NCBI GenBank assembly: GCA_026545225.1
Contig: CM048848.1
Span: 45,342,806-45,406,805, forward strand
Direction: 5' to 3'
DNA from: Cornus controversa
Taxonomy: Eukaryota; Streptophyta; Magnoliopsida; Cornales; Cornaceae
Length of the DNA: 64,000 nt
The position numbers and the translations under genes were made by a program. Shown in pieces: positions 14,722-46,513 of the stretch; position 1 is the stretch's first letter, and the number at the start of each line of letters is the position of its first letter. Below the pieces are notes generated by a model. The model searched no databases. It saw only the letters and a list, made by a program, of their open reading frames with translations, and was not told the DNA's origin.

Positions 14722-15027
14722 TTACTCTATGTGTGTGCGTGTATATATATATATATAGAGAGAGGAATATTACACACATATAATCATACTGAATTTATAA
14801 TAAATTACAAATTGTATAAAAACATGGAATACAACTCTTCATAACAGCACCCATTGAAAGCCTCACATACAACAGCCACAATCTTTGTAGCAAATCAAGT
14901 ATCATCCAAAAGATTACCTAAAATTCTAATGCGCACACATAAAATTAAGAATAATCACTCATTTACTACTGCTTAAAAATAATCACTAAAAATAAATGAA
15001 TAAATACAAGACGACCCTATAGAAGAC

Positions 15028-15309
15028 TTAAGATGTGTGTTCATGGGCAGTTGAATCTTGTCTTGTTGGTGATTTCATGCTCTTGGAAGAAGGAGACAGC
15101 TCGCCGCCGGCGGGCATATCGGCGAGAGTGGCAAGCATCCGGCGGATACTAACGGAGCGAGCTGTTTTGAAGCTGTGAGATCTGCTCTGGGTCTTGGAGA
15201 AGATGTTGGATGACTTTGAAAGGATGATATAAATCAGAGCTTGAACCACAGCAAATAAGCCCACCTTCAACAACATGTCCCCTAAAAAGCTTTCAATCGC
15301 CATGATCAT
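15028..15309 (-). CDS. Small single-pass membrane protein, unknown function (copy 1)
   Basis: A 93-residue intronless ORF. It starts MIMAIESFLGD; a second Met two codons on (MAIE) may be the true start. One hydrophobic segment spans about residues 11-32 (MLLKVGLFAVVQALIYIIL), followed by a basic Ser-rich region (SQSRSHSFKTARSVSIRRML) and a Ser-, Thr- and Pro-rich tail. It therefore looks like an N-terminally anchored protein with a soluble, phosphorylatable tail; that is inference. A near-identical paralogue lies at 39,209-39,493. Conservation of the reading frame between the copies, with substitutions mostly conservative, argues that it is a real gene. A TATA-like box lies about 115 bp upstream. 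An 18.7-kb element is inserted about 380 bp upstream, so distal promoter sequence is displaced. I do not recognise a named family. Confidence 0.8.
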   Translation of the reverse strand: MIMAIESFLGDMLLKVGLFAVVQALIYIILSKSSNIFSKTQSRSHSFKTARSVSIRRMLATLADMPAGGELSPSSKSMKSPTRQDSTAHEHTS

Positions 15310-15423
15310 ATATATGTATGTATATATGTGATTGTAGAGAGAGAGAGAGAGTTATGAGAGAGAAACTTGAGAATGAATGGAAATATTGTGGAATAATTAA
15401 GAAGAAGACGTGCAAAGACGTAG

Positions 15424-15431
15424 TATTTATA
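15424..15431 (-). promoter_or_regulatory. TATA box of small membrane protein gene, copy 1
   Basis: The minus strand reads TATAAATA within CCCACATTATAAATAC. The same CCACATTATAAAT context precedes copy 2 (near 39,630), at a similar distance from the start codon. Confidence 0.6.
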
Positions 15432-15682
15432 ATGTGGGATTTTTGACCAACTAAGCCGACCACTTTGACTTGCCGCCTCCAACAGAAAAATAATTACTTT
15501 TGCTTTGATACATAGAATCTACGTGTTGCTGGATCAGTTTTTTGACACGTGCAAGATGAAGAATAGAAAAGTGAGTTTTGGTCTTTCTTGACTTTTGACT
15601 TTTGATAAGATGAAGAATAGAAAAGAAGACAGCCTTAGAACACTCACGTGCTAAATATCTACCAGCACTCAACTTCTATAAT

Positions 15683-15691
15683 GTCTACTCA
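15683..15691. repeat. Left 9-bp target-site duplication of the giant TIR element
   Basis: GTCTACTCA here matches GTCTAGTCA at 34,427-34,435 with one mismatch. Nine-base duplications are characteristic of Mutator-like elements. Confidence 0.7.
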
Positions 15692-16900
15692 GGAAGAGGA
15701 TCCTCTGCCGTAAACGGGTACTGCTGTACCCATGCAGTACCCGGAGACGGCGTCGTTTAGTTTAAATCAACATGTAACCACTTTTGTTTTTCTCTGCTCC
15801 GTTTTTCCTTCCGTTACATAGCTTTTCAATATTTTATTATTATATATATATACAACATCTGCCATCTGTTATCTTCATACCATCTATCTATATATATATA
15901 TATATATATATAGATATATATATGTTTTACACTTTTTTTCTTTCTCACTTAAAAGTGTATAACTTTTACTATAAATAATATTTTTTGATAAAATTAATTT
16001 TGCTAAATAGAATATTTCGAGAGCTTCAATTTGAGTACAACTTAGGCTATGTTTTAACTTAAAACAAAAAAGTTATAATTTTTCTAATTAATGAATACAC
16101 ACATAAAACAATTGTTCACAACTTTAAATTCATTTTACAAACAATTAAAATGTTTCTCCAATTAATTTTTTTTAAAAATGTTCATAAAAAAAAATTTGTG
16201 CTTAAATGTTTCTAAAAAAATGAAAAAAAAAACATAAAAAATTATGTATTTTTAGTGAGTGAAAATTATTGCAAGTGTGTGGAAATAATAATTTAAATAT
16301 GTAGAAGTGTAATTTTAAGTGTGTGTAAGTGGAGTAGATATTGGGTGAGCCGTGTATACCATGTCATTTGTATACCAAGTCAATTAAAATGCAACATTCA
16401 ATGAAATGTTCAATGAATGGGTCTCACTTACATATAACAACTACTCTTAACCAACTTGAATGCTGCATTTTAATTGGCTTGGTATACAAATGACATGGTA
16501 TACCCGGTTTACCCAATATCTATTCGTGTAAGTGAAACTTAAAAATGTGAACATCAATTGTTATTATTTATTTGTGTAAATCATTACAATCAAAATAGCA
16601 TATTAATCTCAAATTGATTTAACTTTCACATTGATAATACGGATGTCCACGCACTTAAAATATATATTTTCACACCAATAAACTAAGTATCCACGAGTTT
16701 ACGATTATTTTTCACACACTTAAAACCAATCATTTTCTATGCTTTTTCTCTCCAAATTTTTCAAAAACACATCCAATAAATGTTTTCACACAAATAAAAC
16801 ATAACATTTTATTTTCACATTTATTAAAACTCATGTCCACGAACTTAAAGTTCATTTCCACACATATAAAATATTTTTCCACACATTTAAAGTACTTTTC
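15692..16900 (+). repeat. Left terminal inverted repeat, outer part
   Basis: The outer 400 bp aligns by eye with the reverse complement of 34,000-34,426, with roughly three quarters of positions matching and an (AT)n tract at the same place in both arms. From about 16,650 the sequence grades into diverged versions of the tandem repeat (TTTTCACACACTTAAAACC). A MITE interrupts this arm only. Confidence 0.75.
16337..16520. mobile_element. MITE-like palindrome nested in the left arm, 184 bp
   Basis: The arms of about 65 bp are inverted copies (GATATTGGGT outermost, then GTATACCATGTCATTTGTAT inside). TA flanks both sides, as for Tc1/mariner-type (Stowaway-like) MITEs. The right arm of the host element lacks it, so it arrived after the inverted arms formed. 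Confidence 0.7.
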
Positions 16901-19900
16901 CACACACATAAAACAAATACTTTTTTATATTTTTTCTTTCCAATTTTTTTAAGGAACTCTTAGACATATTTGAAGAATGTATTTGCACAAAAAATCATAC
17001 AAATTTATATCCACATAGGCTAATTTTTTCTCACTTTCCACACTTTTAAAGTATTTTTTCTCATATTTAAAATATTTTTTCACACATCTAAAACAAATAC
17101 TTTTTTATGTTTTTTATTTCTAATTCTTTTAGGAACTCTTGGCAAATATAAATTATGTTTTTGAACAAAAAATTCATAAAAAAATTATATTCACATTTTT
17201 GAATTTCATTTTTTTTCACTTTCCACACTTTTAAAATAACTTCCACACACTTAAAACAAATAATTTTTTTGATTTTTTTATTTCCAATTTTTTTAGGAAC
17301 TCTTAAGCAGATTTGAAAAATGTATTTGCACAAAAAAATCATAAAAATTTATGTTCACATTTTTTAGGCTAATTTTTTTCTTCTCATTTTTCACATTTTT
17401 TAAGTATTTTCCACACATTTAAAGTACTTTTCCACACACCTAAAACAAATATTTTTTTATAATTTTTATTTTCAATTTTTTTAAGAACTCTAAGGCATAT
17501 ATGAAATATATTTTTGCACAAAAAATTTCATAAAAAATTTTATTCACATTTTTTAATCTCATTTTTTTCTCACTTTCCACACTTCTAAAGTAGTTTCCAA
17601 ACACTCAAAACATATACGTTTTTTATTTTTTTCTTTCCAATTTTTTTAGGAACTCTTAGGCATATTTGAAGGATGTATTTGCACAAAAAAATCATAAAAA
17701 TTTATATTCACATTTTTTAGGCAAATTTTTTTCTCACTTTCCACACTTTTAAAGTATTTTTCACACATTTAAAGTACTTTTTCACACATTTAAAGTACTT
17801 ATCCACACACCTAAAACAAATACATTTTTATATTTTTTCTTTCCAAATTTTTTAGAAACACTTAGGCATATATAAAAGATGTCTTTGCAAAAAAAAATTC
17901 TTAAAAATTTATATTCACATTTCTTAATCTCAATTTTTTTCACTTTCTACACTTTTTAAGTAATTTCCACACACTTAAAACAAAAAAAAAAATTATTTTT
18001 TTATTTCCTATTTTTTTTAGGAACTCTTAGACATATTTAAAGGATGTATTTGCACAAAAAAATCATAAAAATTTAAATTCACTTTTTTTAGACTAATTTT
18101 TTTCTTACTTTCCACACTTTTAAAATACTTTCCACACAATTAAAGTACTTTTCCACACACCTAAAACCAACATTTTCTTATGTTTTTTCTTCCCAACTTT
18201 TTTAGGAACTCTTACCCATATATGAAAGATGTTTTTGCACAAAAAATTTATAAAAATTTATATTCACATTTTTTAGTCTCATTTTTTTTGCACTATAAAC
18301 ACTTTTAAAGTACTTTCCACACACTTAAAACAAATAATTTTTCTTTTTTTTTTACTTTTGAATTTTTTTAGGAAGTCTTAAGCATATTTGAAGGATGTAT
18401 TTGCACAAAAAAATCATAAAAATTTAAATTCACATTTTTTAGACTCATTTTTTTCTCACTTTCCACACTTTTAAAGTAGTTTCCACACATTTAAAGTATT
18501 TTTCCATAAATTAAAAGTACTTTTCCACACACCTAAAACCAACATTTTCTTATGTTTTTTCTTCCTAATTTTTTTAGGAACTCTTAGCCATATATGAAAG
18601 ATATTTTTGCACAAAAAATTTATAAAAATTTATATTCACATTTTTTAGTCTCATTTTTTTGCACTTTAAACACTTTTAAAGTACTTTCCACACACTTAAA
18701 ACAAATAATTTTTCTTTTTTTTTACTTTTCAATTTTTTTAGGAACTCTTAAGCATATTTGAAAGATGTATTTGCACAAAAAAATCATAAAAATTTAAATT
18801 CACATTTTTTAGACTCATTTTTTCTCACTTTTCACACTTTTAAAGTAGTTTCCACACATTTAAAGTAGTTTTCCACAAATTTAAAGTACTTTTCCACACA
18901 CTTAAAACCAACATTTTCTTATGTTTTTTCTTCCCAATTTTTTTAGGAACTCTTACCCATATATGAAAGATGTTTTTGCACAAAAAATTCATCAAATTTA
19001 TATTCACATTTTTTAATCTCATTTTTTTCACTTTCCACACTTTTAAAGTACTTTGCACACTCTTAAAACAAATAATTTTTCTTTTTTTTTTCTTTTGAAT
19101 TTTTTTAGGAACTCTTAAGCATATTTGAAAGATGTATTTGTACAAAAAAATCATAAAAATTTAAATTCACATTTTTTAGACTCATTTTTTTCTCACTTTC
19201 CACACTTTTAAAATACTTTCCACACAATTAAAGTACTTTTCCACACATTTAAAGTACTTTTTCACACACCTAAAACCAACATTTTCTTATATTTTTTCTT
19301 CCCAATTTTTTTAGGAACTCTTAGCCATATATGAAAGATATTTTTGCACAAAAAATTTATAAAAATTTATATTCACATTTTTTAGTCTCATTTTTTGGCA
19401 CTATAAACACTTTTAAAGTACTTTCCACACACTTAAAACAAATAAATTTTTTTTTTTTTTTTACTTTTGAATTTTTTTAGGAAGTCTTAAGCATATTTGA
19501 AGGATGTATTTGCACAAAAAAATCATAAAAATTTAAATTCACATTTTTTAGACTCATTTTTTTCTCACTTTCCACACTTTTAAAGTAGTTTCCACACATT
19601 TAAAGTATTTTTCCATAAATTAAAAGTACTTTTCCACACACCTAAAACCAACATTTTCTTATGTTTTTTCTTTCCAATTTTTTTAGGAACTCTTAGCCAT
19701 ATATGAAAGATATTTTTGCACAAAAAATTTATAAAAATTTATATTCACATTTTTTAGTCTCATTTTTTTGCACTTTAAACACTTTTAAAGTACTTTCCAC
19801 ACACTTAAAACAAATAATTTTTCTTTTTTTTTACTTTTGAATTTTTTTAGGAACTCTTAAGCATATTTGAAAGATGTATTTGCACAAAAAAATCATAAAA

Positions 19901-22900
19901 ATTTAAATTCACATTTTTTTGACTCATTTTTTCTCACTTTTCATACTTTTAAAGTAGTTTCCACACATTTAAAGTACTTTTCCACAAATTTAAAGTACTT
20001 TTCCACACACCTAAAACCAACATTTTCTTATGTTTTTTCTTCCCAATTTTTTTAGGAACTCTTACCCATATATGAAAGATGTTTTTGCACAAAAAATTCA
20101 TCAAATTTATATTCACATTTTTTAATCTCATTTTTTTCACTTTCCACACTTTTAAAGTACTTTGCACACTCTTAAAACAAATAATTTTTCTTTTTTTTTT
20201 CTTTTGAATTTTTTTAGGAACTCTTAAGCATATTTGAAAGATGTATTTGTACAAAAAAATCATAAAAATTTAAATTCACATTTTTTAGACTCATTTTTTT
20301 CTCACTTTCCACACTTTTAAAATACTTTCCACACAATTAAAGTACTTTTCCACACATTTAAAGTACTTTTTCACACACCTAAAACCAACATTTTCTTATA
20401 TTTTTTCTTCCCAATTTTTTTAGGAACTCTTAGCCATATATGAAAGATATTTTTGCACAAAAAATTTATAAAAATTTATATTCACATTTTTTAGTCTCAT
20501 TTTTTGGCACTATAAACACTTTTAAAGTACTTTCCACACACTTAAAACAAATAAATTTTTTTTTTTTTTTTACTTTTGAATTTTTTTAGGAAGTCTTAAG
20601 CATATTTGAAGGATGTATTTGCACAAAAAAATCATAAAAATTTAAATTCACATTTTTTAGACTCATTTTTTTCTCACTTTACACACTTTTAAAGTAGTTT
20701 CCACACATTTAAAGTATTTTTCCATAAATTTAAAGTACTTTTCCACACACCTAAAACCAACATTTTCTTATGTTTTTTCTTTCCAATTTTTTTAGGAACT
20801 CTTAGCCATATATGAAAGATGTTTTTGCACAAAAAATTTATAAAAATTTATATTCACATTTTTTAGTCTCATTTTTTTGCAATTTAAACACTTTTAAAGT
20901 ACTTTCCACACACTTAAAACAAATAATTTTTCTTTTTTTTTACTTTTCAATTTTTTTAGGAACTCTTAAGCATATTTGAAAGATGTATTTGCACAAAAAA
21001 ATCATAAAAATTTAAATTCACATTTTTTAGACTCATTTTTTCTCACTTTCCACACTTTTAAAGTAGTTTCCACACATTTAAAGTAGTTTTCCACAAATTT
21101 AAAGTACTTTTCCACACACCTAAAACCAACATTTTCTTATGTTTTTTCTTCCCAATTTTTTTAGGAACTCTTACCCATATATGAAAGATGTTTTTGCACA
21201 AAAAATTCATCAAAATTTATATTCACACTCTTAAAGTACTTTGCACACTCTTAAAACAAATAATTTTTCTTTTTTTTTTCTTTTGAATTTTTTTAGGAAC
21301 TCTTAAGCATATTTGAAAGATGTATTTGTACAAAAAAATCATAAAAATTTAAATTCACATTTTTTAGACTCATTTTTTTCTCACTTTCCACACTTTTAAA
21401 ATACTTTACACACAATTAAAGTACTTTTCCACACATTTAAAGTACTTTTTCACACACCTAAACCAACATTTTCTTATATTTTTTCTTCCCAATTTTTTTA
21501 GGAACTCTTAGCCATATATGAAAGATATTTTTGCACAAAAAATTTATAAAAATTTATATTCACATTTTTTAGTCTCATTTTTTGGCACTATAAACACTTT
21601 TAAAGTACTTTCCACACACTTAAAACAAATAAATTTTTTTTTTTTTTTTACTTTTGAATTTTTTTAGGAAGTCTTAAGCATATTTGAAGGATGTATTTGC
21701 ACAAAAAAATCATAAAAATTTAAATTCACATTTTTTAGACTCATTTTTTTCTCACTTTACACACTTTTAAAGTAGTTTCCACACATTTAAAATATTTTTC
21801 CATAAATTTAAAGTACTTTTCCACACACCTAAAACCAACATTTTCTTATGTTTTTTCTTTCCAATTTTTTTAGGAACTCTTAGCCATATATGAAAGATGT
21901 TTTTGCACAAAAAATTTATAAAAATTTAGATTCACATTTTTTAGTCTCATTTTTTTGCAATTTAAACACTTTTAAAGTACTTTCCACACACTTAAAACAA
22001 ATAATTTTTCTTTTTTTTTACTTTTCAATTTTTTTAGGAACTCTTAAGCATATTTGAAAGATGTATTTGCACAAAAAAATCATAAAAATTTAAATTCACA
22101 TTTTTTAGACTCATTTTTTCTCACTTTCCACACTTTTAAAGTAGTTTCCACACATTTAAAGTAGTTTTCCACAAATTTAAAGTACTTTTCCACACACCTA
22201 AAACCAACATTTTCTTATGTTTTTTCTTCCCAATTTTTTTAGGAACTCTTACCCATATATGAAAGATGTTTTTGCACAAAAAATTCATCAAAATTTATAT
22301 TCACACTCTTAAAGTACTTTGCACACTCTTAAAACAAATAATTTTTCTTTTTTTTTTCTTTTGAATTTTTTTAGGAACTCTTAAGCATATTTGAAAGATG
22401 TATTTGTACAAAAAAATCATAAAAATTTAAATTCACATTTTTTAGACTCATTTTTTTCTCACTTTCCACACTTTTAAAATACTTTCCACCCAATTAAAGT
22501 ACTTTTCCACACATTTAAAGTACTTTTTCACACACCTAAAACCAACATTTTCTTATATTTTTTCTTCCCAATTTTTTAGGAACTCTTAGCCATATATGAA
22601 AGATGTTTTTGCACAAAAAATTTATAAAAATTTATATTCACATTTTTTAGTCTCATTTTTTGGCACTATAAACACTTTTAAAGTACTTTCCACACACTTA
22701 AAACAAATAATTTTTCTTTTTTTTTTACTTTTGAATTTTTTTAGGAAGTCTTAAGCATATTTGAAGGATGTATTTGCACAAAAAAATCATAAAAATTTAA
22801 ATTCACATTTTTTAGACTCATTTTTTTCTCACTTTCCACACTTTTAAAGTAGTTTCCACACATTTAAAGTATTTTTCCACAAATTTAAAGTACTTTTCCA

Positions 22901-25110
22901 CACACCTAAAACCAACATTTTCTTATGTTTTTTCTTCCTAATTTTTTTAGGAACTCTTAGCCATATATGAAAGATGTTTTTGCACAAAAAATTATAAAAA
23001 TTTATATTCACATTTTTTATTCTCATTTTTTGGCACTATAAACACTTTTAAAGTACTTTCCAGACACTTAAAACAAATAATTTTTCTTTTTTTTTACTTT
23101 TCAATTTTTTTAGGAAGTCTTAAGCATATTTGAAGGATGTATTTGCACAAAAAAATCATAAAAATTTAAATTCACATTTTTTAGACTCATTTTTTCTCAC
23201 TTTCCACACTTTTAAAGTAGTTTCCACACATTTAAAGTATTTTTCCACAAATTTAAAGTACTTTTCCACACACCTAAAACCAACATTTTCTTATGTTTTT
23301 TCTTCCCAATTTTTTTAGGAACTCTTAGCCATATATGAAAGATGTTTTTGCACAAAAAATTATAAAAATTTATATTCACATTTTTTAATCTCATTTTTTT
23401 GCACTTTAAACACTTTTAAAGTACTTTCCACAAACTTAAAACAAATAATTTTTCTTTTTTTTTACTTTTCAATTTTTTTAGGAAGTCTTAAGCATATTTG
23501 AAGGATGTATTTGTACGTAAAAATCATAAAAATTTAAATTCACATTTTTTAGACTCAATTTTTTCTCACTTTCTACACTTTTAAAGTAATTTCCACACAT
23601 TTAAAGTACTTTTCCACAAATTTAAAGTACTTTTCCACACACCTAAAACAAACGTTTTCTGATGTTTTTTCTTCCCAATTTTTTTAGGAACTCTTACCCA
23701 TATATGAAAGATGTTTTTGCACAAAAAATTCATCAAAATTTATATTCACATTTTTTAATCTCATTTTTTTCACTTTCCACACTTTTAAAGTACTTTCCAC
23801 ACACTTAAAACAAATAATTTTTCTTTCTTTTTTCTTTTGAATTTTTTTAGGAACTCTTAAGCATATTTAAAGGATGTATTTGCATAAAAAAATCAAAAAA
23901 ATTTAAATTCACATTTTTTAGCCTAATTTTTTCTCATTTTTCACACTTTTAAAGTAATTTCTACACATTTAAAGTACTTTTCCACAAATTTAAAGTACTT
24001 TTCCACACACCTAAAACAAACATTTTCTGATGTTTTTTCTTCCCAATTTTTTTAGGAACTCTTACCCATATATGAAAGATGTTTTTGCAGAAAATATTCA
24101 TAAAAATTTATATTCACATTTTCTAATCTCATTTTTTTTCACTTTCCACACAATTAAAGTACTTTTCCACACATTTAAAGTACTTTCCACACACCTAAAA
24201 CCAACATTTTCTTATGTTTTTTCTTCCCAATTTTTTTAGGAACTCTTACCCATATATGAAAGATGTTTTTGCACAAAAAATTTATAAAAATTTATTTTCA
24301 AATTTTTTAGTCTCATTTTTTTGCATTTTAAACACTTTTAAAGTACTTTCCACACACTTAAAACAAATAATTTTTCTTTCTTTTTTCTTTTGAATTTTTT
24401 TAGGTACTCTTAAGCATATTTGAAAGATGTATTTGCACAAAAAAATCAAAAAAATTTAAATTCACATTTTTTAGCCTCATTTTTTTCTCACTTTCCACAC
24501 TTTTAAAGTAATTTCCAATATTTTTTTATATTTTTTCCTTCCAATATTTTTAGGAACTCTTAGCCATATATTAAAGAAGTTTTTGCACAAAAAATTTATA
24601 AAAAATTATATTCACATTTTTTAATCTCATTTTTTTTACTTTCTACACTTTTAAAATACTTTCCACACACTTAAAACAAATAATTTTTTTTTTTTTAATT
24701 TTTTTAGGACCTCTTCAGCATATTTGAAGGATGTATTTGCACAAAAAAATTATAAAAATTCAAATTCAAATTTTTTAGGGTCATTTTTTTCTCACTTTCC
24801 ACACTTTTAAAGTATTTTTCAGACATTTAAAGTATCTTTCCACACACCTAAAACAAATACTTTTTTATGTGTTTTCTTCCAAATTTTTTTAGGAACTTTT
24901 GGCCATATATGAAATATGTTTTTGCACAAACAATTTATAAAAAATTATATTCACATTTTTTAATCTCATTTTTTTTCATTTTCCACACTTTTAAAGTACT
25001 TTCCACACAGTTAAAACAAATAATTTTTTTATTTCTTTCTTTCATATTTTTTTTGGAACTCTTAGACATATTTGAAGGTTGTATTTGCACAAAAAATCAT
25101 TAAAAGAAAG
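16900..25110 (+). repeat. AT-rich tandem repeat array, left arm (about 8.2 kb)
   Basis: The basic unit is about 185 bp and recurs as two alternating types. Both contain TTTTTTTAGGAACTCTTA. One continues GCCATATATGAAAGATG and the other AGCATATTTGAARGATG; then follow TTTGCACAAAAAA, ATTCACATTTTTTA, and one to three copies of a TTTAAAGTACTTTTCCACACA motif. The pair makes a dimer of about 370 bp. Short ORFs in the array are products of the repeat and not genes. Divergence rises towards both ends, as expected if homogenisation is strongest in the middle. Confidence 0.9.
18782..23154 (+). repeat. Higher-order repeat: four copies of a 1.08-1.11 kb unit
   Basis: The landmark ATCATAAAAATTTAAATTC following the same variant context occurs at 18,782, 19,892, 21,001, 22,079 and 23,155, giving spacings of 1,110, 1,109, 1,078 and 1,076 bp. 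Each unit consists of three dimers of about 370 bp. Copies 1 and 2 are almost identical by eye; in copies 3 and 4 about 30 bp is missing at the segment reading ATTCACACTCTTAAAG. Confidence 0.85.
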
Positions 25111-25120
25111 GAGGACGGAT

Positions 25121-25194
25121 TTTCCTTTTCATCATAGTAAATTTAAAGCTCAACTTAAAATCCAATGTATAATGAATTGGTCTGTCTACAGAAT
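25121..25194 (+). repeat. 74-bp repeat at the array/centre junction
   Basis: TTTCCTTTTCATCATAGTAA through GTCTACAGAA matches 26,642-26,715 with two or three mismatches. One copy abuts the end of the tandem array, suggesting it was copied during assembly or repair of the element. Confidence 0.8.
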
Positions 25195-26641
25195 GCAATC
25201 AAGAATTTGGTAGAGTATTGTTTGAAATTTGGTATACTACAAATCATGTTGTTCTCATAAACCAACCTGCACACTTTCATATTCATAACCACATCACAAT
25301 CTATGTACTAGTTTATTAAACCACACAAAAAAATATCATAAACACCAAAAGCTTCATTTATAACATTCAAGTCAGATTTACATCCAAATTCGTCAAATAT
25401 TAATACAATAAATGTACACTTTTTATGATTAGCCTACAAAACAAAAGCCACCACGCAATGTCCAATGTGACAACCACACCCCAACCTTAAACCGATACAC
25501 AACAAGCCAAGTGATGAACACATGAAACACAAAAACTGCCAATGAAACCTAGTTCACCAATTCATCAACATCATCTTTGAAATTATACTTCATTCAGGCC
25601 TTATAATTTCCCGTCCGTTTAGAAGTTTAGAAGAGAGGCTGAGATTAGGATTTACACCAAGCTACTTTGATAAACACCAAAATCCCAGGTACTGACAAGT
25701 TCAAGAAGAGTGTACAGAGCAGCTCATTGGAAAGCAATTGTTTGTATCGTCTTCCCCAGTCCCCTGCTCCAAGTTGAAAAAATAGAAGATAAGTTAGGTA
25801 TCAACATAATTAGCACACCATGAAATAGAGCAAGTATGTGAAATAATTTTACTTTATCAATAATCTTCTTAAATGCACTCTTTATCAAGAATCCTGAAAA
25901 CAATAAAAAATAAATAAAAAAAACCTAATGACTCTAATAAAGTTGGACATCAAAGAAAATCCAGTTGCGGTTTATAAGCCAATTTAATTGATGAGCTACA
26001 GGACCTACCACCGGGCAATACTTTTATATTGCAAATTACAGAGGAGATACATCAGAAAAATTCTCAAATTAAAGATTCTTTTTATTAAGAATGTGAAGAA
26101 CTCTCGAGTAAGGGATAGTATTGATCATTCTAATTTCCTAGCCAATATTTTTAGTATTGCCATCTCTAGAAGACGAGAATTTAAGAATAAATCCAGCAGG
26201 TTATTCAAATAAATGGATTACTCTTAAGTGTGCAGTTAGGCAAAAAGCAAAAAAATGGAGTACTCAAGTGTGCAGTTAGGCAAAAAGTGTATGTGCCAAG
26301 TATGTAAACCAAACACTGATTAATCCTTCACCTAAAAGCAGCATCAATTGACAGAAGATGCAGCCTATGTAAAATAAAGTGAGGCTTTTATTCTGTTTTG
26401 GTTGGTTGAATGAAAATTTACTTAGGAAAAAAAAAAGTGAGGCTTCATAAAGCTGAAACCAAATAGTTAGCATAGGGCTTTGTGACTTCAGCTCTTATTC
26501 TGAATGAAAAATCCATCTTAAGAAATTTTACTTGATTGTACTCTGAGACAAGAAAACAATAACATGACTTGTGCAATGAGTTGCAAGGGAATATATCCCT
26601 TAGATGAATTGGCTATCAAACTTCACAATTTATTGAAATAA

Positions 26642-26715
26642 TTTCCTTTTCATCATAGTAAATTTAAAGCTCAACTTAAAATACAATGTATAATGAATTG
26701 GCCTGTCTACAGAAA
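26642..26715 (+). repeat. Second copy of the 74-bp repeat
   Basis: Direct repeat of 25,121-25,194, lying 1.5 kb inside the centre of the giant element. Confidence 0.8.
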
Positions 26716-27599
26716 TAATCTAATACGTTGATCATGCTCATCATAATGGAGAACATAAGAAAACTGAAAACACAAAAAGTCACAATGCAGGAAGTGGATA
26801 GAAAAAAAGGCTCAATGTGCTGCTCTAGAATCAAGATACACTAGACTATCAAGGATTATTGGCAATCGATGAGTAAAATTGTTTCTAAGAGGGACAAAAA
26901 ATCTTCCTATAAAAACTTGTAGAAATGGCTAAAATTTAAAAAAGCATGAGAGAGAGAGAGTCTGCAGGAAAGGATGACCATAGAGCAGATTCGCTTAAAT
27001 ACTAGAAAAGGAGGTACAACTTAAACATGAAGAGACCATTTCCAGTGGTCTAGTATGATATACAAGATCAGATAATTCAGATAGGGTTTGTTTTATACAA
27101 AATGCTTACCTTCCCAAAAAAATGGTGTATCAAATAGTTCAATGAATGTCAAAAGATCGAGTTTTAAAGTTCACCTCTGACTTAGATCCATCAGTGGTCA
27201 AACATGCAATAAACAATTTTAAATACAGGACTTGAATAAAATTGTAAAGACAAAAATAGTAAGAGAGTAGTAGTGCATATAATATAATATAATAAGATTA
27301 TTGTCATGTTCATGCCATTTTATTTTATTTTATTTAAGGATTTGCAGTCTCAATATATCCATGTAACGTCATCTACTGCTCATGTCTGCGTTATTAGTAT
27401 TACACATATTCAATTGCAGGAATATTTTAGGAGTATCAGTAGACCTTCTGCAAATGAAACAAGCAAGGATAAGGGAAAATAAAGTCCATCCACAAGCATG
27501 GAACAATCAATATCCTCTTCAAATTAATTAGAAAAAGAATCCAAATTTTCAAATATGTTTTATATAAACATTTTCTCCTAAAGGAGTAGAAAACTTTAC

Positions 27600-27753
27600 C
27601 TTGTCAAGATCAGTGTGTGTAAAAGCAACATGATCATTGCATGCTATGCAATTCCGTAGAGCAAATAGTCTCTTTTCGATGCACTGAACAACTTCTTGAC
27701 CTAGCAGACTATTCCTCAAGTGCTGAAGTTCTTCAGTATGAATAAACAAAATT
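27600..27753 (-). pseudogene. Exon-like block of an unidentified gene
   Basis: The minus strand has an acceptor (CACATTCAG) at 27,754, 51 open codons, and a donor (AAG then GTAAAG) at 27,600. The predicted peptide includes HTEELQHLRNSLLGQEVV and RNCIACNDHVAFTHTDL, which reads as genuine helical protein sequence. I do not recognise it. It may belong to the same captured gene as the SWI2-like exon at 29.3-29.7 kb or to a different one; whether it is transcribed is unknown. Confidence 0.4.
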
Positions 27754-29332
27754 CTGAATGTGAGGCCCCTATGTTTAAAAACATGCCGTCAAATGTGAAT
27801 CAAACAAAATTAATATGTGAAAAAGTTCTAGTAATTTTAGTTCGATGTATAGGACAAGAGTAACAAATCAAATTATACTATGTTAAGTGTAACATCTTTC
27901 TGAGGAACATAACAACTTCTATGGATATTAAACATAAAGTGGTAAATGTTGTGAAACCACAACACAAATTGATAATAAGCTTCACAAATCATCATCTAGA
28001 AGTAATAAACAAAAACTAAGAGACTGGTTTCAGCTTGTTCAACTCGGTAAGGTTCTCATTTGCATTAAGGAAATAAATGAAGCAGCACCCTTTTCCAAGA
28101 TTTCTACTTACAACAGATAAACACAAATTGTAACACTTATGCACAAGGGTCAAATATTCCAATTGCCCTTCAAAAAATAAAAGAATGCAAGAATCTTTCT
28201 GGTGTTGCAAGGGAGGAAGACACTTCTAGAGCTGGAAGAACAAAAAGAGTGATTTTAATTACTCCGAAAACTACCTTTCCTAAAGGAACTGTGGAAATTA
28301 GATTTTCATTCTAACACACTCACACAGGCACGGAGAGTCGCTTTTACATGTCGCCAACCTTCAATGCAAGTGTTTTATCATTTAATCAGACACCCTTGCT
28401 CTGCTAATTGGCTGTTATTTCTCATTACGACCTTCACCCAAACAAATTATATACAGGTATGACAATATACTCATTTAATTATTCAAAATTATCCTCCCTT
28501 TGATAATATACTCTTTTAATCCTTCTATCACCATTACTATACATTTAAAAGGTAATGAAAGCAATATCAACTTGATATGCATTGTTGTACATTAATTCGT
28601 GGCTACGCTTGGTCAGTGATAATACAACCTGTAACATGACCTATTTACTGTATATTAACATATGGGAGGAAAATAACTAGTCTTGGCTATTTTTACCTGT
28701 AAAAGCAAAATAAGGAAAATATGATAAAATGAGAAGCTAGACAGTAAATAAGACTAATCAATGCAAATATATTGATGTTCATTCAGTGACGGATAATATC
28801 AACAACTCGCATGTGCACATTCATCATGAACATCCCCCCCCCCCCATTTGCCCCACCGAGATGGGTCATTAGACTAGAAATCAATTATGTCCCTATTCTG
28901 AGATGGAATCAGGCTTAACCACAAGGGTTGAATCAAAGTAGATTATAGTTGTGAGAATGGGAAGCATAAGCAAGAAACAACAAGGACACACTGATTCTGA
29001 TCATTGATTTTTATCAAACTATCTATCACTCAATCATTTATAGTGCCAAATAATAGTATCAAACAAAGTAAAATATATATATATATTCAATACAAGAGAA
29101 GCACATCACATCATAATACACCTAATTAAAAAATGTAATATGATATTATATAAACAATTTGGACAAAATTATCAGTCGTGGAAATGTTTTATAAGGAACA
29201 AATTATAATCCAATAACATAAAAGTCGAAGAAAAAAATACAAAGAATCACAATTCAATCTCACAAAATGTAATTACATAATAACCAATTGGGCATAAGAA
29301 TCAATGGTACAAAATGGGTTGGAAGAAATCAC

Positions 29333-29682
29333 CTGACACACTGGTATTTCACCAGGAAATGACAGAACCAATGGCTGAAAGGGCCCAGTATGATCAAATT
29401 GGAAAGAATCCAATTTGGACCTCGCAAATCCATTGTGTCTGTCATCTTCGTCGTCTTCATCACCACATTCACCGTCAAGCTGGGTCTATTTTGGCTGACT
29501 TTGTGATTGGTGTTGAGGGAAAGATAATGGGTCTTGGAGGCGAAGAAGCTGTTGAGAGAGAAAAGATTGAGGCGATTTTCTGAGGTTTGTTGGGAGGTCA
29601 AATTGATGGGAAATTGAAGGTTGTGAATAAGATGAGATGGGCATGGAGGATGATGATGATAGGTTTGTACAAGGCTTGAGAG
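29333..29682 (-). pseudogene. Truncated exon 1 of a SWI2/CHR9-type (ERCC6L2-like) SNF2 remodeller gene
   Basis: Read on the minus strand, the frame opens mid-protein at SLKPCTNLSSSSS, continues through SFLSQQLLRLQDPLSFPQ, hits an in-frame TAG at 29,486-29,488, then gives an acidic run (GDEDDEDD) and FDHTGPFQPLVLSFPGEIP, ending at a donor (GTGTGTCAG then GTGATT). From memory of the family, this is the N-terminal leader of plant SWI2/CHR9 (Switch 2) proteins, just before the SNF2 helicase domain. The start codon and first few residues are missing, cut where arm-type sequence begins at about 29,683. No helicase motif is found downstream, so only exon 1 and perhaps intron 1 were captured. It cannot encode a remodeller. 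Confidence 0.65.
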
Positions 29683-29730
29683 ATATATTTTATTGTCATT
29701 TTATTTAAATAAAACCCAAATAACTTAAAA

Positions 29731-32700
29731 ACTGAACAACTGTGAATATAAAAAATGTGAAAATAAATTTTTATAATTTATTTGTGGAAAGACATTCTTT
29801 AAATATGGCAAAAAATGTTCCTAAAAAAATGGAAAACATAAAAAACTATTTGTTTTAAGTATGTGAAAAAGCATTACAAATGTGTGGAAAGTGTTTTAAA
29901 TGTGTGAAAAGTGCTTTAAGTATGTGAAAAGTGAGAAAAGATGAAACTAAAAAATGTGAATATAATATTTTTTTTGATTTACTTGTGCAAAAACATCCTT
30001 CAAATATGGCTAAAATTTTGCACAAAAAAATTTGAAAGATATAACACAAAAAAATATTTGTTTTAAATGTGTGGAGATTACTTTAATTGTGTGGAAATGC
30101 TTTAAATGTGAGGAAAAGTGCTTTAACTGTGTGGAAAGTGAGAAATAATGTTTTCAGTGTGTGAAAAATACTTTAAAAGTGTGGAAAATGAAAAAAAAAT
30201 GGGATTAAAAAATGTAAATATAATTTTTATAAATTTTTTGTGCAAAAACATCTTTCATATATGGCTAAGAGTTCGTAAAAAAATTGGAAAGAAAAACCAT
30301 AAAAATATTTGTTTTAGGCGTATCAAAAAGTACTTTAAATGTGTGAAAATTACTTTAAAAGTGTGGAAAGTGAGAAAAAAATGAGAACTTAAATTTTTAT
30401 GATTTTTTTTGTACAAATACATCCTTCAAATATGCTTAAGAGTTCCTCAAAAAATTCAAAATAAAAAAAAAAGAAAAATTATTTGTTTTAAGTGTGTGGA
30501 AAGTACTTTAAAAGTGTGAAAAGTTAAAAAAAATGAGATTAAAAAATGTGAATATCAATTTTTATATTTTTTTTGTGCAAAAACATCTTTCATATATGGC
30601 TAAGAGTTCCTAAAAAAATTGGAAACAAAAAACATAATAAAATGTTTGTTTTAGGTGTGTGGAAAAGTACTTTAAATTTGTGGAAAAGTACTTTAAATGT
30701 GTGGAAATTACTTTAAAAGTGTGGAAAGTGAGAAAAAAATGAGGCTAAAAAATGTGAATTTAAATTTTTATGATTTTTTTGTGCAAATATATCTTTCAAA
30801 TATGCTTAAGAGTTCCTAAAAAAATTCAAAAGAAAAAAAAAGAAAAATTATTTGTTTTAAGTGTGTGGAAAGTACTTTAAAAGTGTTTAAAGTGCAAAAA
30901 AATGAGACTAAAAAATGTGAATATAAATTTTTATAAATTTTTTGTGCAAAAACATCTTTCATATATGGGTAAGAGTTCCTAAAAAAATTGGGAAGAAAAA
31001 ACATAGGAAAATGTTTGTTTTACGTGTGTGGAAAAGCCCTTTAAATTTGTGGAAAAGTACTTTAAAAGTGTGGAAAGTGAGAAAAAAATGAGTCTAAAAA
31101 ATGTGAATTTAAATTTTTATGATTTTTTTGTACAAATACATCCTTCAAGTATGCTTAAGAGTTCCTAAAAAAATTCAAAAGAAAAAAAAAAGAAAAATTA
31201 TTTGTTTTAAGTGTGTGGAAAGTACTTTAAAAGTGTTTAAAGTGCAAAAAAATGAGACTAAAAAATGTGAATATAAATTTTTATAAATTTTTTGTGCAAA
31301 AACATCTTTCATATATGGGTAAGAGTTCCTAAAAAAATTGGAAAGAAAAAACATAAGAAAACGTTTGTTTTAGGTGTGTGGAAAAGCCCTTTAAATTTGT
31401 GGAAAAGTACTTTAAATGTGTGGAAATTACTTTAAAAGTGTGGAAAGTGAGAAAAAAATGAGTCTAAAAAATGTGAATTTAAATTTTTATGATTTTTTTG
31501 TACAAATACATCCTTCAAATATGCCTAAGAGTTCCTAAAAAAATTCAAAAGAAAAAAAAAAGAAAAATTATTTGTTTTAAGTGTGTGGAAAGTACTTTAA
31601 AAGTGTTTAAAGTGCAAAAAAATGAGACTAAAAAATGTGAATATAAATTTTTATAAATTTTTTGTGCAAAAACATCTTTCATATATGGGTAAGAGTTCCT
31701 AAAAAAATTGGAAAGAAAAAACATAAGAAAACGTTTGTTTTAGGTGTGTGGAAAAGCCCTTTAAATTTGCGGAAAAGTACTTTAAATTTGTGGAAATTAC
31801 TTTAAAAGTGTGGAAAGTGAGAAAAAAATGAGTCTAAAAAATGTGAATTTAAATTTTTATGATTTTTTTGTACAAATACATCCTTCAAATATCCTTAAGA
31901 GTTCCTAAAAAATTCAAAAGAAAAAAAAAAGAAAAATTATTTGATTTAAGTGTGTGGAAAGTACTTTAAAAGTGTGGAAAGTTAAAAAAAAATGAGATTA
32001 AAAAATGTGAATATCAATATTTATATTTTTTTTGTGCAAAAACATCTTTCATATATGGGTAAGAGTTCCTAAAAAAATTGGGAAGAAAAAACATAAGAAA
32101 ATGTTTGTTTTAGGTGTGTGGAAAAGGACTTTAAATTTGTGGAAAAATACTTTAAATGTGTGGAAATTACTTTAAAAGTGTGGATAGTGAGAAAAAAATG
32201 AGTCTAAGAAATGTGAATTTAAATTTTTATGATTTTTTTGTACAAATACATCCTTCAAATATGCTTAAGAGTTCCTAAAAAAATTCAAAAGAAAAAAAAA
32301 AGAAAAATTATTTGTTTTAAGTGTGTGGAAAGTACTTTAAAAGTGTGGAAAGTTAAAAAAAAATGAGATTAAAAAATGTGAGTATCAATTTTTATTTTAT
32401 TTTTGTGCAAAAACATCTTTCATATATGGGTAAGAGTTCCTAAAAAAATTGGGAAGAAAAAACATAAGAAAATGTTTGTTTAGGTGTGTGGAAAAGTAAT
32501 TTAAATTTGTGGAAAAATATTTTAAATGTGTGGAAATTACTTTAAAAGTGTGAAAAATGAGAAAAAAATGAGGCTAAAAAATGTGAATTTAAATTTTTAT
32601 GATTTTTTTGTGCAAATACATCTTTCAAATATGCTTAAGAGTTCCTAAAAAAATTCAAAAGAAAAAAAAAATTTATTTGTTTTAAGTGTGTGGAAAGTAC

Positions 32701-33900
32701 TTTAGAAATGTTTAAAGTCCAAAAAAATGAGACTAAAAAATGTGAATATAAATTTTTATAAATTTTTTGTGCAAAAACATCTTTCATATATGGGTAAGAG
32801 TTTCCAAAAAAATTGGGAAGAAAAAACATAAGAAAATGTTTGTTTTAGGTGTGTGGAAAAGTACTTTAAATTTGTGGAAAAGTACTTTAAATGTGTGAAA
32901 ATTACTTTAAAAGTGTGAAAAGTGAGAAAAAAATGAGTCTAAAAAATGTGAATTTAAATTTTTATGATATTTTTGTGCAAATACATCCTTCAAATATGCT
33001 TAAGAGTTCCTAAAAAAATTCAAAAGAAAAAAATAAAGAAAAATTATTTGTTTTAAGTGTGTGGAAAGTACTTTAAAAGTGTTTAAAGTGCAAAAAATGA
33101 GACTAAAAAATGTGAATATAAATTTTTATAAATTTTTTGTGCAAAAACATCTTTCATATATAGGTAAGAGTTCCTAAAAAAATTGGGAAGTAAAAACATA
33201 AGAAAATGTTGGTTTTAGGTGTGTGGAAAAGTACTTTAAATGTGTGAAAAAGTACTTTAATTGTGTGGAAAGTACTTTAGAAGTGTGGAAAGTGAGAAAA
33301 AAATGAGTCTAAAAATTGTGAATATAATTTTTTATGATTTTTTTTTGTGCAAATACATCTTTCAAATATGTCTAAGAGGTCCTAAAAAAATAGTAAATAA
33401 AACACATAAAAAAATATTTGTTTTAGGTGTGTGGAAAAGTATTTTAAATGTGTGAAAAGTGAGAAAAAATGAGATTAAAAAATATGAGTATAATTTTTTT
33501 CTTTTTTGTGCAAATACATAGTTCAAATAAGGCTAAGAGTTCCTAAAAAAAATTGGAAAAAGAAATATTAAAAAAGATTTGTTTTAAGTATGTGGAAAAA
33601 TATTTTAAAAGTGTGGAAAGTACTTTAAATGTGTGAAAAGTGAGAAAAAATTAGATTAAAAAATGTGAATATAAGTTTTTATGATTTATTTGTGAAAAAA
33701 TATTCAAGCATGTCTAAAAGTTGATAAAAAATTTGTAAATAAAAAATAAAAAAATATTTATTTTAAGTGTGATAAAATACTTTAAATGTACTGAAAGTGA
33801 GTAAAAATGAGATAAAAAAATGCAAACGTAAATTTTTATGATTTATTTGTGAAATTTTTTTTTTAATTTTTTAAGCACAATTTTCTTTTTATGTCTACAA
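29731..33900 (-). repeat. AT-rich tandem repeat array, right arm (about 4.2 kb, inverted)
   Basis: These are the same two unit types as at 16,900-25,110, but reverse complemented (TCTTTCATATATGGGTAAGA, CCTTCAAATATGCTTAAGAG, TGTGTGGAAAGTACTTTAAA). Dimers of about 350-370 bp are clear around 30,650-33,200, for instance GTGTGTGGAAAAGCCCTTTA at about 31,022, 31,374 and 31,744. It is half the length of the left arm and lacks that arm's 1.1-kb higher-order unit. Confidence 0.9.
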
Positions 33901-34173
33901 ACATTTAAACACAATTTTTTTTAATAAATCTTTAAAAAAAATATTAAAATGTATTTATTTTATATGTGAGAAAGAATTTAAAGTGTGAAAAATTATTCAA
34001 ATGTGTAGTCATGAATTGAAAAAATTATAACTTTTTTATCTTAAGTTAAAATATAGTCTAAGTTATACTCAAATTGAAGCTCTCGAAATATTCTATTAAA
34101 CAAAATTAGTTTCATCAAAAAATATTATTTGTTGTAAAAGTTATTGAATTTGAAGTGAAAAGATAAAAAGTGT

Positions 34174-34228
<55 letters not shown>

Positions 34229-34426
34229 CGAATGTAATAAGAGAAGAAAGAAAGTTTGTATGTATTTTTATAATAAAATATTGAAAAGTAATATAACGGA
34301 AGTTACTGAAGCGGAACGGAGCAAATTCAAAATCAAAACAAAGTGACTGAATTATTAATAAAACGACGTCGTTTTCCTCTACTGCACGGGTACGGCATGA
34401 CCCGTTACAGCAGAGGATTCCAGTCC
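33901..34426 (-). repeat. Right terminal inverted repeat, outer part
   Basis: Reverse complement of the left tip, including GAAGCTCTCGAAATATTCTA, a long (AT)n run at about 34,176-34,222, the CGACGTCGTTTT block and the terminal CAGAGGATTCCAGTCC. Confidence 0.75.
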
Positions 34427-34435
34427 GTCTAGTCA
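34427..34435. repeat. Right 9-bp target-site duplication of the giant TIR element
   Basis: GTCTAGTCA pairs with GTCTACTCA at 15,683-15,691. The following sequence (CACCTAGTTTGATCCGTAAT) continues the flank shared with the paralogous region at about 41,011-41,100. Confidence 0.7.
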
Positions 34436-34606
34436 ATCTTCACCTAGTTTGATCCGTAATCAGTGATGTAATCAAAAACCATATAAAGTTTTCCACAATC
34501 AAATATCAGTAAATGAGAAAGTTATCACGATGGTATTCTCATCTGAGTTTATCTATTCATATACTCCGTGTATATATATAGTATATATATATATATATAT
34601 ATATAT

Positions 34607-35293
34607 AGGAAGGCATATTCGCAGTCTTCTTCCCTCCTATTGCATTTTATTTATTTATTTATTTTTAAATAAATGACAAAAAAATTTATAAATTCATTAA
34701 TGTATCATTTTTATTTTATAATATCATAACTACCATTTATTTTATAAACTTTAACTCTTTTTACTTTCTTTAGTACTTTTTTTTGTGTTTTTGGAGTAAT
34801 GTCAAAAAATATAATTTATTCTGTAGAGATAAATTTTTTTAGGTCCTTTTTTTGTGTACTATATTTTTTTTCCTCAAATGAGATTATTTATTTTACTTAT
34901 GATAACTTTTTTTTGGGTCATGTCAAAATAAATAATTAAGAAATATTTTTTTGGGTTTTTTTTTTCGGTTCTTGTCAAAAGAAATCTTTTTATTTAACAT
35001 AGATAACTTTTTTTTTTAATCCGGTAAAAATAGATAATTTATTTAGCATAAATAACTCTTTTTTTTTCATGTCAAAAGATAACATATTTAGAAGAGATAA
35101 CATTTTTTTTAAGATTCTCTCAAAAGAGACCTAAAATACTAAAGATGAAAAATAAAGAGGGGATATCTTAGAGGGTAATTGTGTAACTTGATAAAAATAA
35201 TAATCATTCACTTATAAAATTAGAATTATAGTGTCATTTCATTTGAGATAGGAGTACAAATATATAAAAGAGGAGTGCAAATATCGTCTCCCT
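34607..35293. mobile_element. MITE-like insertion flanked by (AT)n
   Basis: The ends are imperfect inverted copies: AGGAAGGCATATTCGCAGTC on the left versus AGGGAGACGATATTTGCACT read inward from the right. Microsatellite (TA)n lies on both sides. The paralogous region at about 41,100 lacks it, passing directly from ATCTGAGTTTAT to AAGGAATGATGG. The inside is AT-rich and non-coding. Confidence 0.55.
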
Positions 35294-35302
35294 ATATATA
35301 TA

Positions 35303-35336
<34 letters not shown>

Positions 35337-35454
35337 TTTAAGGAATGACGATTGTGGTCTTTGGCTTTTGATTAGAGCATTTCCTAGTGTACCATCCGGG
35401 TGCATACAATTTCTTCCTCTACATGCTTCAGATAATTTTTCAATTTTTTTTTAA

Positions 35455-36470
35455 GGGACTGTTTGGAAAATATTTGGATTCCAAATTTCTATTGCCATTT
35501 TTAAAATTTTAAAATCTATGTTAAAAAATAAGTTTGGTAACCGATTTTCATTTTTGAAATTTTAAAATTCAATGTTAAAATTTTGGAAGACATAAAGGCA
35601 TATTTTGAAAGCAAAAATTTGTGACTTCCAAATTTCGATTCTAGTTTAAGAGCACTGTAGCAGAGCTATAGTGCAACTTAAAACTTACTAACTATATAAT
35701 CGTTTATTACAGGCCTAATCACTTCGCCGCATCAGCACTTGGTTATCTTCGCTAGGGCTCCGAGCGACATTGCTCCATCTTCCTCACCTCTCTTCATCTT
35801 TCTGAATCACAGCCTGGTTATCTCTCTCTATATCTCTATCTCTCTGTTATTCTTTATTTATTTTGCTCTGAATTGTGAACCCAAATCCTTTAGATGTTGA
35901 TTATCACATCAAGGCTAGCTGGTTATGGCCTTTTTTTCTATATATATAGTACTGTAATTGGCTGAATCACGAATTTAAGATTTCTGAGTAGCTAAAGTTA
36001 TGGATGTAATTGTCCTGAACTTGCTTTTTTATTACTTTCCAACTGGCTTATCTTTCTGTAGTTTAGTTTTCTTTTATACTTATTATACGCATCCAGTGCT
36101 TTCCCTATTATTATTGAGCTTCATGTGGGCCTGAGGCAGACATTATTATGCCCAATCTTATAATGCATCTATATTGCTTCTTTTAAAATCAGTAGAAGAA
36201 GTAGTAAAATTCGATATCGGGTTTTACTGTGCTGATTTTTCTGGGATTGAGTCTAATGACATTTTGATTTTGAGTTAGAAAACTATTTCTTTAACTTTAT
36301 TTAGATTAATAGGTTACAAATTACGTTTGCTCTTACAATTTGTCATTTCGAGTTCTAATTAGAAAATATGTTTTTGACATTTAGTGTAGATTAATTCTTT
36401 TCTAAGATTTATTTTATGTATAGATTCTAGGTTATCAAGATATTACCCTCGTTGTATGATCATGTTGACA
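35455..36470. mobile_element. About 1-kb insertion carrying a gene 5'-end-like segment
   Basis: Compared with the paralogous sequence near 41,290-41,310, about 1,016 bp is extra here: the flanks CAATTTTTTTTTAA and GATTAAAAAGTTATGATG are adjacent there. It starts GGGACTGTTTGG, a common start of plant non-autonomous DNA elements, but no matching inverted end was found. Inside, at 35,740-35,840, is a GC-richer stretch followed by a CT-rich tract, like a 5' UTR and first-intron start. Confidence 0.45.
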
Positions 36471-39040: not shown

Positions 39041-39208
39041 CAAATCATATATATGATCTACCACCAAAAAAACAAAAGATTACCTAACATTCAAAAGCAT
39101 ACTCACAAAAGAATCATCACTCATTTGCTGCTTAAAAATATAAACACTAAAAATAAATAAATAAATAAATATATATATACAGAAAAGGACCCAATTAATA
39201 GAGAAGAC

Positions 39209-39493
39209 TCAAGAGGTGTGATCATGGACAGTTGAATCTTGTCTTAATGTTGGTGATTTCATGCTCTTGGAAGAAGGAGACAGCTCGCCACCGGCGGGCA
39301 TGTCGGCGAGAGCGGCGAGCATCCGGCGGATACTAACAGAGCGAGCTGTTTTGAAGCTGTGAGATCTGCTCTGGGTCTTGGAGAAGATGTTGGATGACTT
39401 TGAAAGGATGATATAAACCAGAGCTTGAACCACAACAAATAAGCCCACCTTCAACAACATGTCCCCTAAAAAGCCTTCAATCGCCATGATCAT
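39209..39493 (-). CDS. Small single-pass membrane protein, unknown function (copy 2)
   Basis: The 94-residue paralogue of the gene at 15,028-15,309, same strand. It starts MIMAIEGFLGD and has one transmembrane segment (MLLKVGLFVVVQALVYIIL), the same basic Ser-rich stretch and a tail longer by one residue (TLRQDST). The frame remains open upstream to 39,628, but those 45 extra residues include low-complexity sequence and are not shared with copy 1, so the start matching copy 1 is preferred. About ten amino-acid differences separate the copies. This copy keeps its ancestral upstream region, although roughly 1.1 kb of extra sequence (39,765-40,865) lies within it. Confidence 0.8.
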   Translation of the reverse strand: MIMAIEGFLGDMLLKVGLFVVVQALVYIILSKSSNIFSKTQSRSHSFKTARSVSIRRMLAALADMPAGGELSPSSKSMKSPTLRQDSTVHDHTS

Positions 39494-39764
39494 ATATATG
39501 GATGCTAAGACTGCTATGTATATGTATATGGGATTGTAGAGAGAGAAAGAGGGAGAGTTATGAGAGAGAAAATTGGAGAATGAATGAAAATTGTGGAATG
39601 GAAAAGAAGAGCCCATGCAAAGACACATTTATAATGTGGCATTTGTGACTGTTAAAAGCCCACCCCTTTGACTTTTCAACTCTCCAATCAAGAAAAGAAT
39701 TCTATATAGAACCTACATGTTGCTAGAAAAGTTGACTTTGGGTCATTCTTGACATTTTAGACTT

Positions 39765-41881: not shown

Positions 41882-42155
41882 TGTTGGAAGTATTTATTTA
41901 TTCATTAAAGTTATTTGAGTCGATTGATGTCCTAGTCAATAGAACTTTGTTGTTAGTGGTGTGTGGTTATTTAACGTGTCCTAGTCTGTAGGAGAGTTTG
42001 ATATACACGATGTGTAATGCCTAGAATTGTGTCATTAGTTGTTGGTGTATTGCCTATATAAAGACTATTTGATTATTAAATAATATATCTCAGTACTTTC
42101 TCTTTTACTTGTCTTTATTGTTTCAGCTTTATATATAATATTACACTTTACAATA
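41882..42155 (+). repeat. 5' LTR of the Copia element
   Basis: It contains a TATA-like CTATATAAAGAC at about 42,053 and a T-rich U5. It pairs with 46,514-46,787. Confidence 0.93.
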
Positions 42156-46502: not shown

Positions 46503-46513
46503 AAGGAAGGGAT
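46503..46513 (+). promoter_or_regulatory. Polypurine tract
   Basis: AAGGAAGGGAT directly precedes the 3' LTR, where second-strand synthesis is primed in LTR elements. Confidence 0.75.

Follow-up and report, generated by a model that had tools for sequence, protein, structure and literature searches.

Foldback transposons with long terminal inverted repeats (TIRs) built of repeats, and with large coding members, were reportedly described in Arabidopsis by Windsor and Waddell in 2000 under the name FARE, and these elements are said to be well under 42 kb in size. Mutator/foldback elements with repeat-built TIRs are already known (PMC3169594, PMC4079207). Tm1, a Mutator/Foldback family of root-knot nematodes with 8-10 bp duplications at 45 of 53 elements, resembles the family from Cornus controversa described here in its variable-length composite TIRs with internal repeats, its 9-bp duplications, and the presence of non-autonomous groups beside members that code for a putative transposase. 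In the available sections of that account, however, Tm1 comprises ~1-kb elements with a ~14-bp motif, whereas the family studied here has 369-bp units, elements of 6-71 kb, and a plant host (PMC3169594). Tetris of Drosophila virilis is likewise a foldback element with internal TIR units (~220 bp) and a link to satellite DNA; it makes 8-10 bp target site duplications (TSDs) and was proposed to belong to the Mutator superfamily, but no complete copy coding for a transposase was known (PMC4079207), while coding siblings exist here. Pack-MULEs share with our locus a host gene fragment between the ends of a Mutator-like element (MULE). According to a review, none in the original set exceeded 7 kb (PMC6431247), whereas the copy analysed here spans 18.7 kb, has satellite arms, and shares its captured piece with transposase-bearing copies. 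Finally, plant MULEs of the Jittery/FAR1 type resemble the large siblings of our copy in having an N-terminal FAR1 and a C-terminal SWIM domain around the MULE domain. In a broad survey, the listed TIRs of this subgroup measure 39-292 bp and its TSD is given as "not indicated/8 bp", MULE TIRs in general range from 14 to 500 bp, and one table row gives 640 bp (PMC6446971); in contrast, the family here has 9-bp TSDs and, in our copy, arms of 4.7 and 9.4 kb.

The window, a stretch of 64,000 nucleotides from the 771.7-Mb host genome (contig C4:45342806-45406805), contains an 18,735-bp block (15692-34426) with TIRs outermost, arms made of inverted tandem arrays, and a centre of 4.6 kb (Table 1). 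Its left end reads GGAAGAGGATCCTCTGCCG... and its right end, on the minus strand, GGACTGGAATCCTCTGCTG... The TIRs expected of a MULE are present and ~535 bp long; they match at 81% over 434 aligned columns, which is most of their length, and show 435 identities, 77 mismatches, and 57 gap positions when aligned end to end. Both arms are filled with tandem copies of one ~369-bp compound unit, composed of a ~164-bp and a ~205-bp sub-unit, and the copies in one arm are inverted relative to those in the other; inverted matches between the arms reach 3.8 kb at 89%. Long inverted arms of tandem sub-repeats in variable number, by which foldback elements are recognized, are thus found here. The sequence-only reading had seen the inverted outer ends, the 9-bp flanks with one mismatch, and the one tandem repeat in both arms, and all three are confirmed. 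Its 4.6-kb centre also stands, except for the right border: the 51 bp at 29681-29731 occur at the array/interior borders of siblings too and were therefore assigned to the arm, which leaves a left arm of 9,410 bp, a centre of 4,579 bp, and a right arm of 4,746 bp. GC content is 33% in the centre versus 23% in the arrays. A sigma-70 promoter scan of the left TIR was disregarded as meaningless for plant DNA. Outside the block, a ~480-bp direct repeat (15018-15471 and 39199-39674, 87%) flanks the element, its copies lying 24 kb apart. Direct repeats of 274 bp (41880-42153 and 46512-46785, 95% alike) flank copia-like frames at 42434-44137, as judged by eye, and together these are probably an LTR retrotransposon. 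Two 400-bp tandem copies at 8232-9033 are 100% identical, and a frame at 685-1359 resembles, by eye, a MoaA/CNX2-type molybdenum cofactor gene of plants.

Table 1. Features of the copy in the window (window positions) and paired sibling copies elsewhere in the genome (contig:positions)
Feature	Position	Strand	Size	Remarks
Left TSD copy, GTCTACTCA	15683..15691	+		8/9 match with right copy
Left terminal inverted repeat (L type)	15692..16226	+	~535 bp	TIR alignment, family end matches
Left-arm tandem array, ~369-bp compound unit	16850..25101	+		GC 23%, dense TTTCCACAC motif
Centre, residue of large-sibling interior	25102..29680	.		C1 joined positions 24951-29552, 97.9%
Captured eIF6 gene fragment	27180..28470	-		Donor-like locus C2:1812728-1814501, 89-93% DNA, three pieces
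eIF-6 exon fragment	27597..27743	-		Pfam PF01912 positions 71-117; sibling C1 has same exon
Second protein-coding exon, remnant	29276..29683	-		Common to family members; one in-frame stop in window copy
Right arm, inner edge	29681..29731	+		Recurs at sibling array/interior borders
Right-arm tandem array, ~369-bp unit inverted	29732..33860	-		Repeat and inverted alignment
Right terminal inverted repeat (R_in type)	33881..34426	-		TIR alignment, family end matches
Right TSD copy, GTCTAGTCA	34427..34435	+		8/9 match with left copy
Window copy	15692..34426		18.7 kb	
Sibling	C1:126730150-126774810		44.7 kb	
Sibling	C5:22135977-22178001		42.0 kb	
Sibling	C3:38219087-38262340		43.3 kb	
Sibling	C6:5783597-5854621		71.0 kb	
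Sibling	C6:30313588-30333203		19.6 kb	
Sibling	C3:37443518-37466774		23.3 kb	
Sibling	C3:60118057-60128562		10.5 kb	
Sibling	C4:61195891-61211138		15.2 kb	
Sibling	C4:75380066-75390163		10.1 kb	
Sibling	C5:56609193-56620882		11.7 kb	
Sibling	C8:26903711-26916319		12.6 kb	
Sibling	C10:17655943-17667615		11.7 kb	
Sibling	C10:31231570-31243381		11.8 kb	
Sibling	C2:34241132-34249553		8.4 kb	Arms only
Sibling	C2:58750167-58756566		6.4 kb	

The ends of the block recur throughout the genome. At least 44 matches were found for its left 200 bp (40 of 118 candidates scored), at least 47 for its right 200 bp (40 of 125 scored), and at least 42 for a second right-end type, R_out, queried with the end of the C1 copy (40 of 120 scored). 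The first 46 bp of the window's L end are identical in 10 of the 13 other L ends compared; the remaining three show 2, 2, and 19 ungapped differences. Pairing of ends yielded 16 copies with both flanks read, the window copy included (Table 1). A further sibling on C9 extends over at least 42.7 kb from an L end to an R_in end, a minimum size because its outer right end was not found. TSDs agree at 9/9 positions in 12 of the 16 copies, among them the 44.7-kb (C1) and 42.0-kb (C5) ones, and at 8/9 in two (window and C4:75.38). The 71-kb C6 copy has 6/9, and C3:38.2 has 1/9 as framed and was counted so (a one-base shift, by eye, gives 8/9); C3:60.1 was counted as 9/9 after such a shift. Thus, the 9-bp duplication expected of MULEs is present at 8 or 9 of 9 positions in 14 of the 16 copies. 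Among 240 mismatched flank pairings used as a control, the best score was 7, none reached 8, and nine scored 6 or 7; the C6 copy with its 6/9 is thus no evidence on its own. Because the ends recur at many sites with duplications and no control pairing reached 8, the ends and flanks of the window copy are not due to chance. The genome search proposed along with the sequence-only reading, for copies with the same outer ends and 9-bp flanks, has thus returned many. The TSD count left out two paired loci with truncated ends (C2:84501265-84505306 and C9:25473746-25477936), at which a duplication is absent by eye, as well as a broken cluster at C2:88.8 Mb, unpaired end matches, and single-end copies, among them those at C9:11.4 Mb, C6:66.8 Mb, and C3:65.7 Mb. 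Three R_out ends on C4 (66686451, 66716887, and 66717125) have one common outer flank, ATGCTAACAAAGATGT, and are therefore probably local duplicates of one insertion.

Empty sites were sought by comparing the joined flanks of four copies (window, C1, C5, and C2:34.24) with the genome. For the 42.0-kb C5 copy, an uninterrupted paralogous site exists at C5:22003207-22003508 (94%), and for the 8.4-kb C2:34.24 copy two sites span nearly the whole joined flank (93 and 87%), in addition to shorter ones. The empty sites that were read, those for C5 and the better one for C2, contain one target copy each, exactly for C2 and one base off for C5. The joined flanks of the window and C1 insertions matched only their own flanks in this genome query, which revealed no empty site for either. 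These results bear on the possibility that the satellite arrays grew locally on either side of a gene fragment and merely mimic an element. Array lengths do differ between copies, and the left array of the window contains an exact internal duplication with a spacing of 1,109 bp. However, the same arms, ends, and interior occur at numerous unlinked places that have separate duplications of 9 bp, two of the insertions have empty sites, and we regard local growth as so improbable that it hardly competes. As arms and centre are common to larger siblings, the block did not grow at the window site. The sequence-only reading had inferred that it "moved or grew as one element". Movement as one Mutator-like unit agrees with siblings that share its ends and have 9-bp duplications of their own, with the empty sites of the 42.0- and 8.4-kb copies, and with a MULE transposase in the largest siblings; growth in place does not hold.

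A genome search with the repeat unit gave at least 338 matches (20 of 1274 candidates scored), and those listed all lie at places where ends, centre, or transposase link them to the family; the one exception is a cluster at C2:37.46 Mb. The motif TTTCCACAC occurs 111 times in the window element, both strands counted, and 175 times in the arms of C1, and is absent from the remaining 45.3 kb of the window. A second, palindromic motif, AAAGTACTTT, has 67 sites in the window element and none in the window outside it. Array length varies between copies, and in the 71-kb C6 sibling the transposase domain lies ~30 kb from the left end versus ~10 kb in C1, a difference for which arm expansion or a nested insertion are alternative explanations. 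The left array of the window matches itself at 98.6%, six of six other left arms at 95.1-97.0%, the right arm of C2:34.24 at 95.0%, and its own right arm at 94.9%. Its right array is nearest to the R arms of C2 (96.6%), C4:61.2 (95.9%), and C1 (95.0%), and matches its own left arm at 94.0%; the left array of C1 matches the right array of the window at 95.7% versus 95.1% for the left one. The arms thus appear to travel with the element, with an arm-specific similarity that is partly marginal and, for C1, weak or reversed.

A search for the Pfam MULE domain (PF10551; 150 of 886 candidates scored) found matches inside five siblings (C1, C3, C5, C6, and C9), others close to two copies of the window centre on C8, and none in the window copy among the matches listed. 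By eye, the ORF lists of the small siblings L010, L013, and L014 also contain no transposase-like frame. The transposase gene of C1 is an open frame of 722 amino acids, and those of C5 and C9 are likewise open over 722 codons; the frame in C3 is interrupted by a stop after 673 codons, and the C6 protein is listed in the PF10551 search at 463 amino acids. In the two copies scanned, C5 and C9, the protein combines FAR1, MULE, and SWIM domains, with FAR1 N-terminal and SWIM C-terminal as in the FAR1/Jittery type. The large siblings C1, C5, and C9 may be autonomous. Alternatively, the FAR1-MULE gene might be captured host cargo, an FRS-type gene, in a family moved by another transposase. Plants have FAR1-related host genes, and many other MULE-domain loci exist in this genome (150 of 886 candidates scored). 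Against this, the copies in C1, C3, C5, and C9 are 99.0-99.8% identical, the open ones differ by few amino-acid changes, and the other gene pieces captured in the same interior are fragments; we consider the cargo explanation unlikely. In rough estimates based on few changes, dN and dS are 0.0017 and 0.0233 for C1 versus C9 (13 bases differ), 0.0029 and 0.0233 for C5 versus C9, and 0.0012 and 0.0046 for C1 versus C5. Since the transposase diverges by 0.6% (C1-C9) and 0.9% (C1-C3), versus 2.8 and 3.1%, respectively, in a nearby 1,151-bp stretch of the centre, the protein is more conserved than DNA in its neighbourhood.

L and R terminal repeats differ from each other in this family, and in its large siblings the arms enclose the transposase gene and host-gene DNA. 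The interior of C1 measures ~27 kb between the inner arm edges and includes an antisense 395-aa frame with PF20167; for nine further frames, Pfam returned nothing beyond weak matches to PMD and HMG-box, which fall below its curated cut-offs. As the window copy retains only 4.6 kb of this interior, it represents an internal-deletion derivative. At both edges of its centre the window copy jumps to arm sequence while that of C1 runs on, and C5 matches C1 across both jump points (7,587 bp, 99.6%). By eye, AAAA is apparently common to both sequences at the left junction, and nothing is shared at the right one. Other parts of the interior are retained in C4:61.2 (C1 joined positions 8907-10020), C3:37.4 (32098-36382), C5:56.6 (35437-36382), and C3:60.1 (32439-36429), the last three pieces overlapping one another. 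The window copy and these four small copies look as expected if one large element had lost different parts of its interior, and C1 may resemble that ancestor. The donor-like locus of the captured fragment, on C2 (1812728-1817117), is an eIF6 gene with further exons, and another eIF6 gene lies at C1:119.1 Mb; the element copies listed contain a single eIF6 exon, which covers Pfam positions of about 71-117. A host gene fragment with an identifiable donor thus lies between MULE ends, as in Pack-MULEs. Capture by a transposase-less element itself is not what we found, because the fragment is common to transposase-bearing siblings and the window copy most likely inherited it. The C1 version of the second centre exon has no Pfam family match, and the idea that this exon is cereblon/LON-like was dropped.

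Several siblings are double units in which an R_in end stands beside an L-like end within one outer end pair. The back-to-back ends lie 0-1 bp apart, tip to tip (L010 7768/7770, L011 1043/1045, L012 7910/7912, and L037 6958/6959), and the right end of the window copy is of the same inner type. In both C10 copies and in C8:26.9, a perfect 9-bp duplication surrounds the joined pair, which indicates that both units moved together. Such pairs lend some credit to a composite macro-transposon, in which two smaller elements came to lie beside a host segment and their outer ends then moved the whole. However, a second full-length terminal repeat is absent from the inner side of both arms in the window copy, siblings with other centres have the same inner arm edge, and in C1 the interior runs on towards the transposase gene; a composite origin is thus quite improbable. 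Instead, the window copy very probably is non-autonomous and arose by internal deletion from a giant Mutator-like transposon of the foldback type, and the family is best read as giant, foldback-type, Mutator-like, and recently mobile. Shared ends, TSDs, two empty sites, conserved coding siblings, and deletion derivatives support this explanation. Counterpoints are that the TSD of the window copy, at 8/9, is not perfect, and that the window and C1 insertions lack an empty site in the joined-flank search.

For movement, the 722-aa transposase would bind the ends, and possibly also the repeated arm motif, excise the element by cut-and-paste, and reinsert it with a 9-bp stagger. Interrupted repair may then remove parts of the interior and give rise to derivatives such as the window copy, which might still be movable in trans, and unequal exchange between array units could alter arm length. 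A review of giant DNA transposons of other kinds covers Helitrons (up to 39 kb), Polintons, and Teratorn; large size in itself thus has precedents, but none is known among Mutator-like elements. The sequence-only reading had called MULEs of this size with arms mainly of tandem repeats unusual. The MULEs found in the open-access literature are far smaller than the coding copies. No plant MULE of comparable size was recognized in that literature, which is weak evidence of absence as most subscription papers lie outside its scope. The coding copies are several times larger than the MULEs found in print, and the new features are this size, satellite arms several kb long, and, in C1 and C5, coding siblings of more than 42 kb whose duplications are perfect.

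In VANDAL elements, the element-coded VANC protein binds tandem repeats in noncoding regions, and the arrays of C. controversa can be likened to this by analogy only (PMC10398659). Tentatively, and with less than even confidence, one may go further and picture an actively mobile plant Mutator family with autonomous copies of 42-45 kb (one of 71 kb) and functional arms, whose more than 100 motif copies would bind the transposase or an accessory protein, so that ends tens of kb apart could pair or silencing could be escaped. Because open coding copies of more than 42 kb exist, with perfect TSDs and an empty site for the 42-kb copy, it has become testable whether MULEs move as units of such length and whether satellite-built arms help them to do so. 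The family also shows one way in which a transposon spreads its own satellite arrays and gene fragments through a genome.
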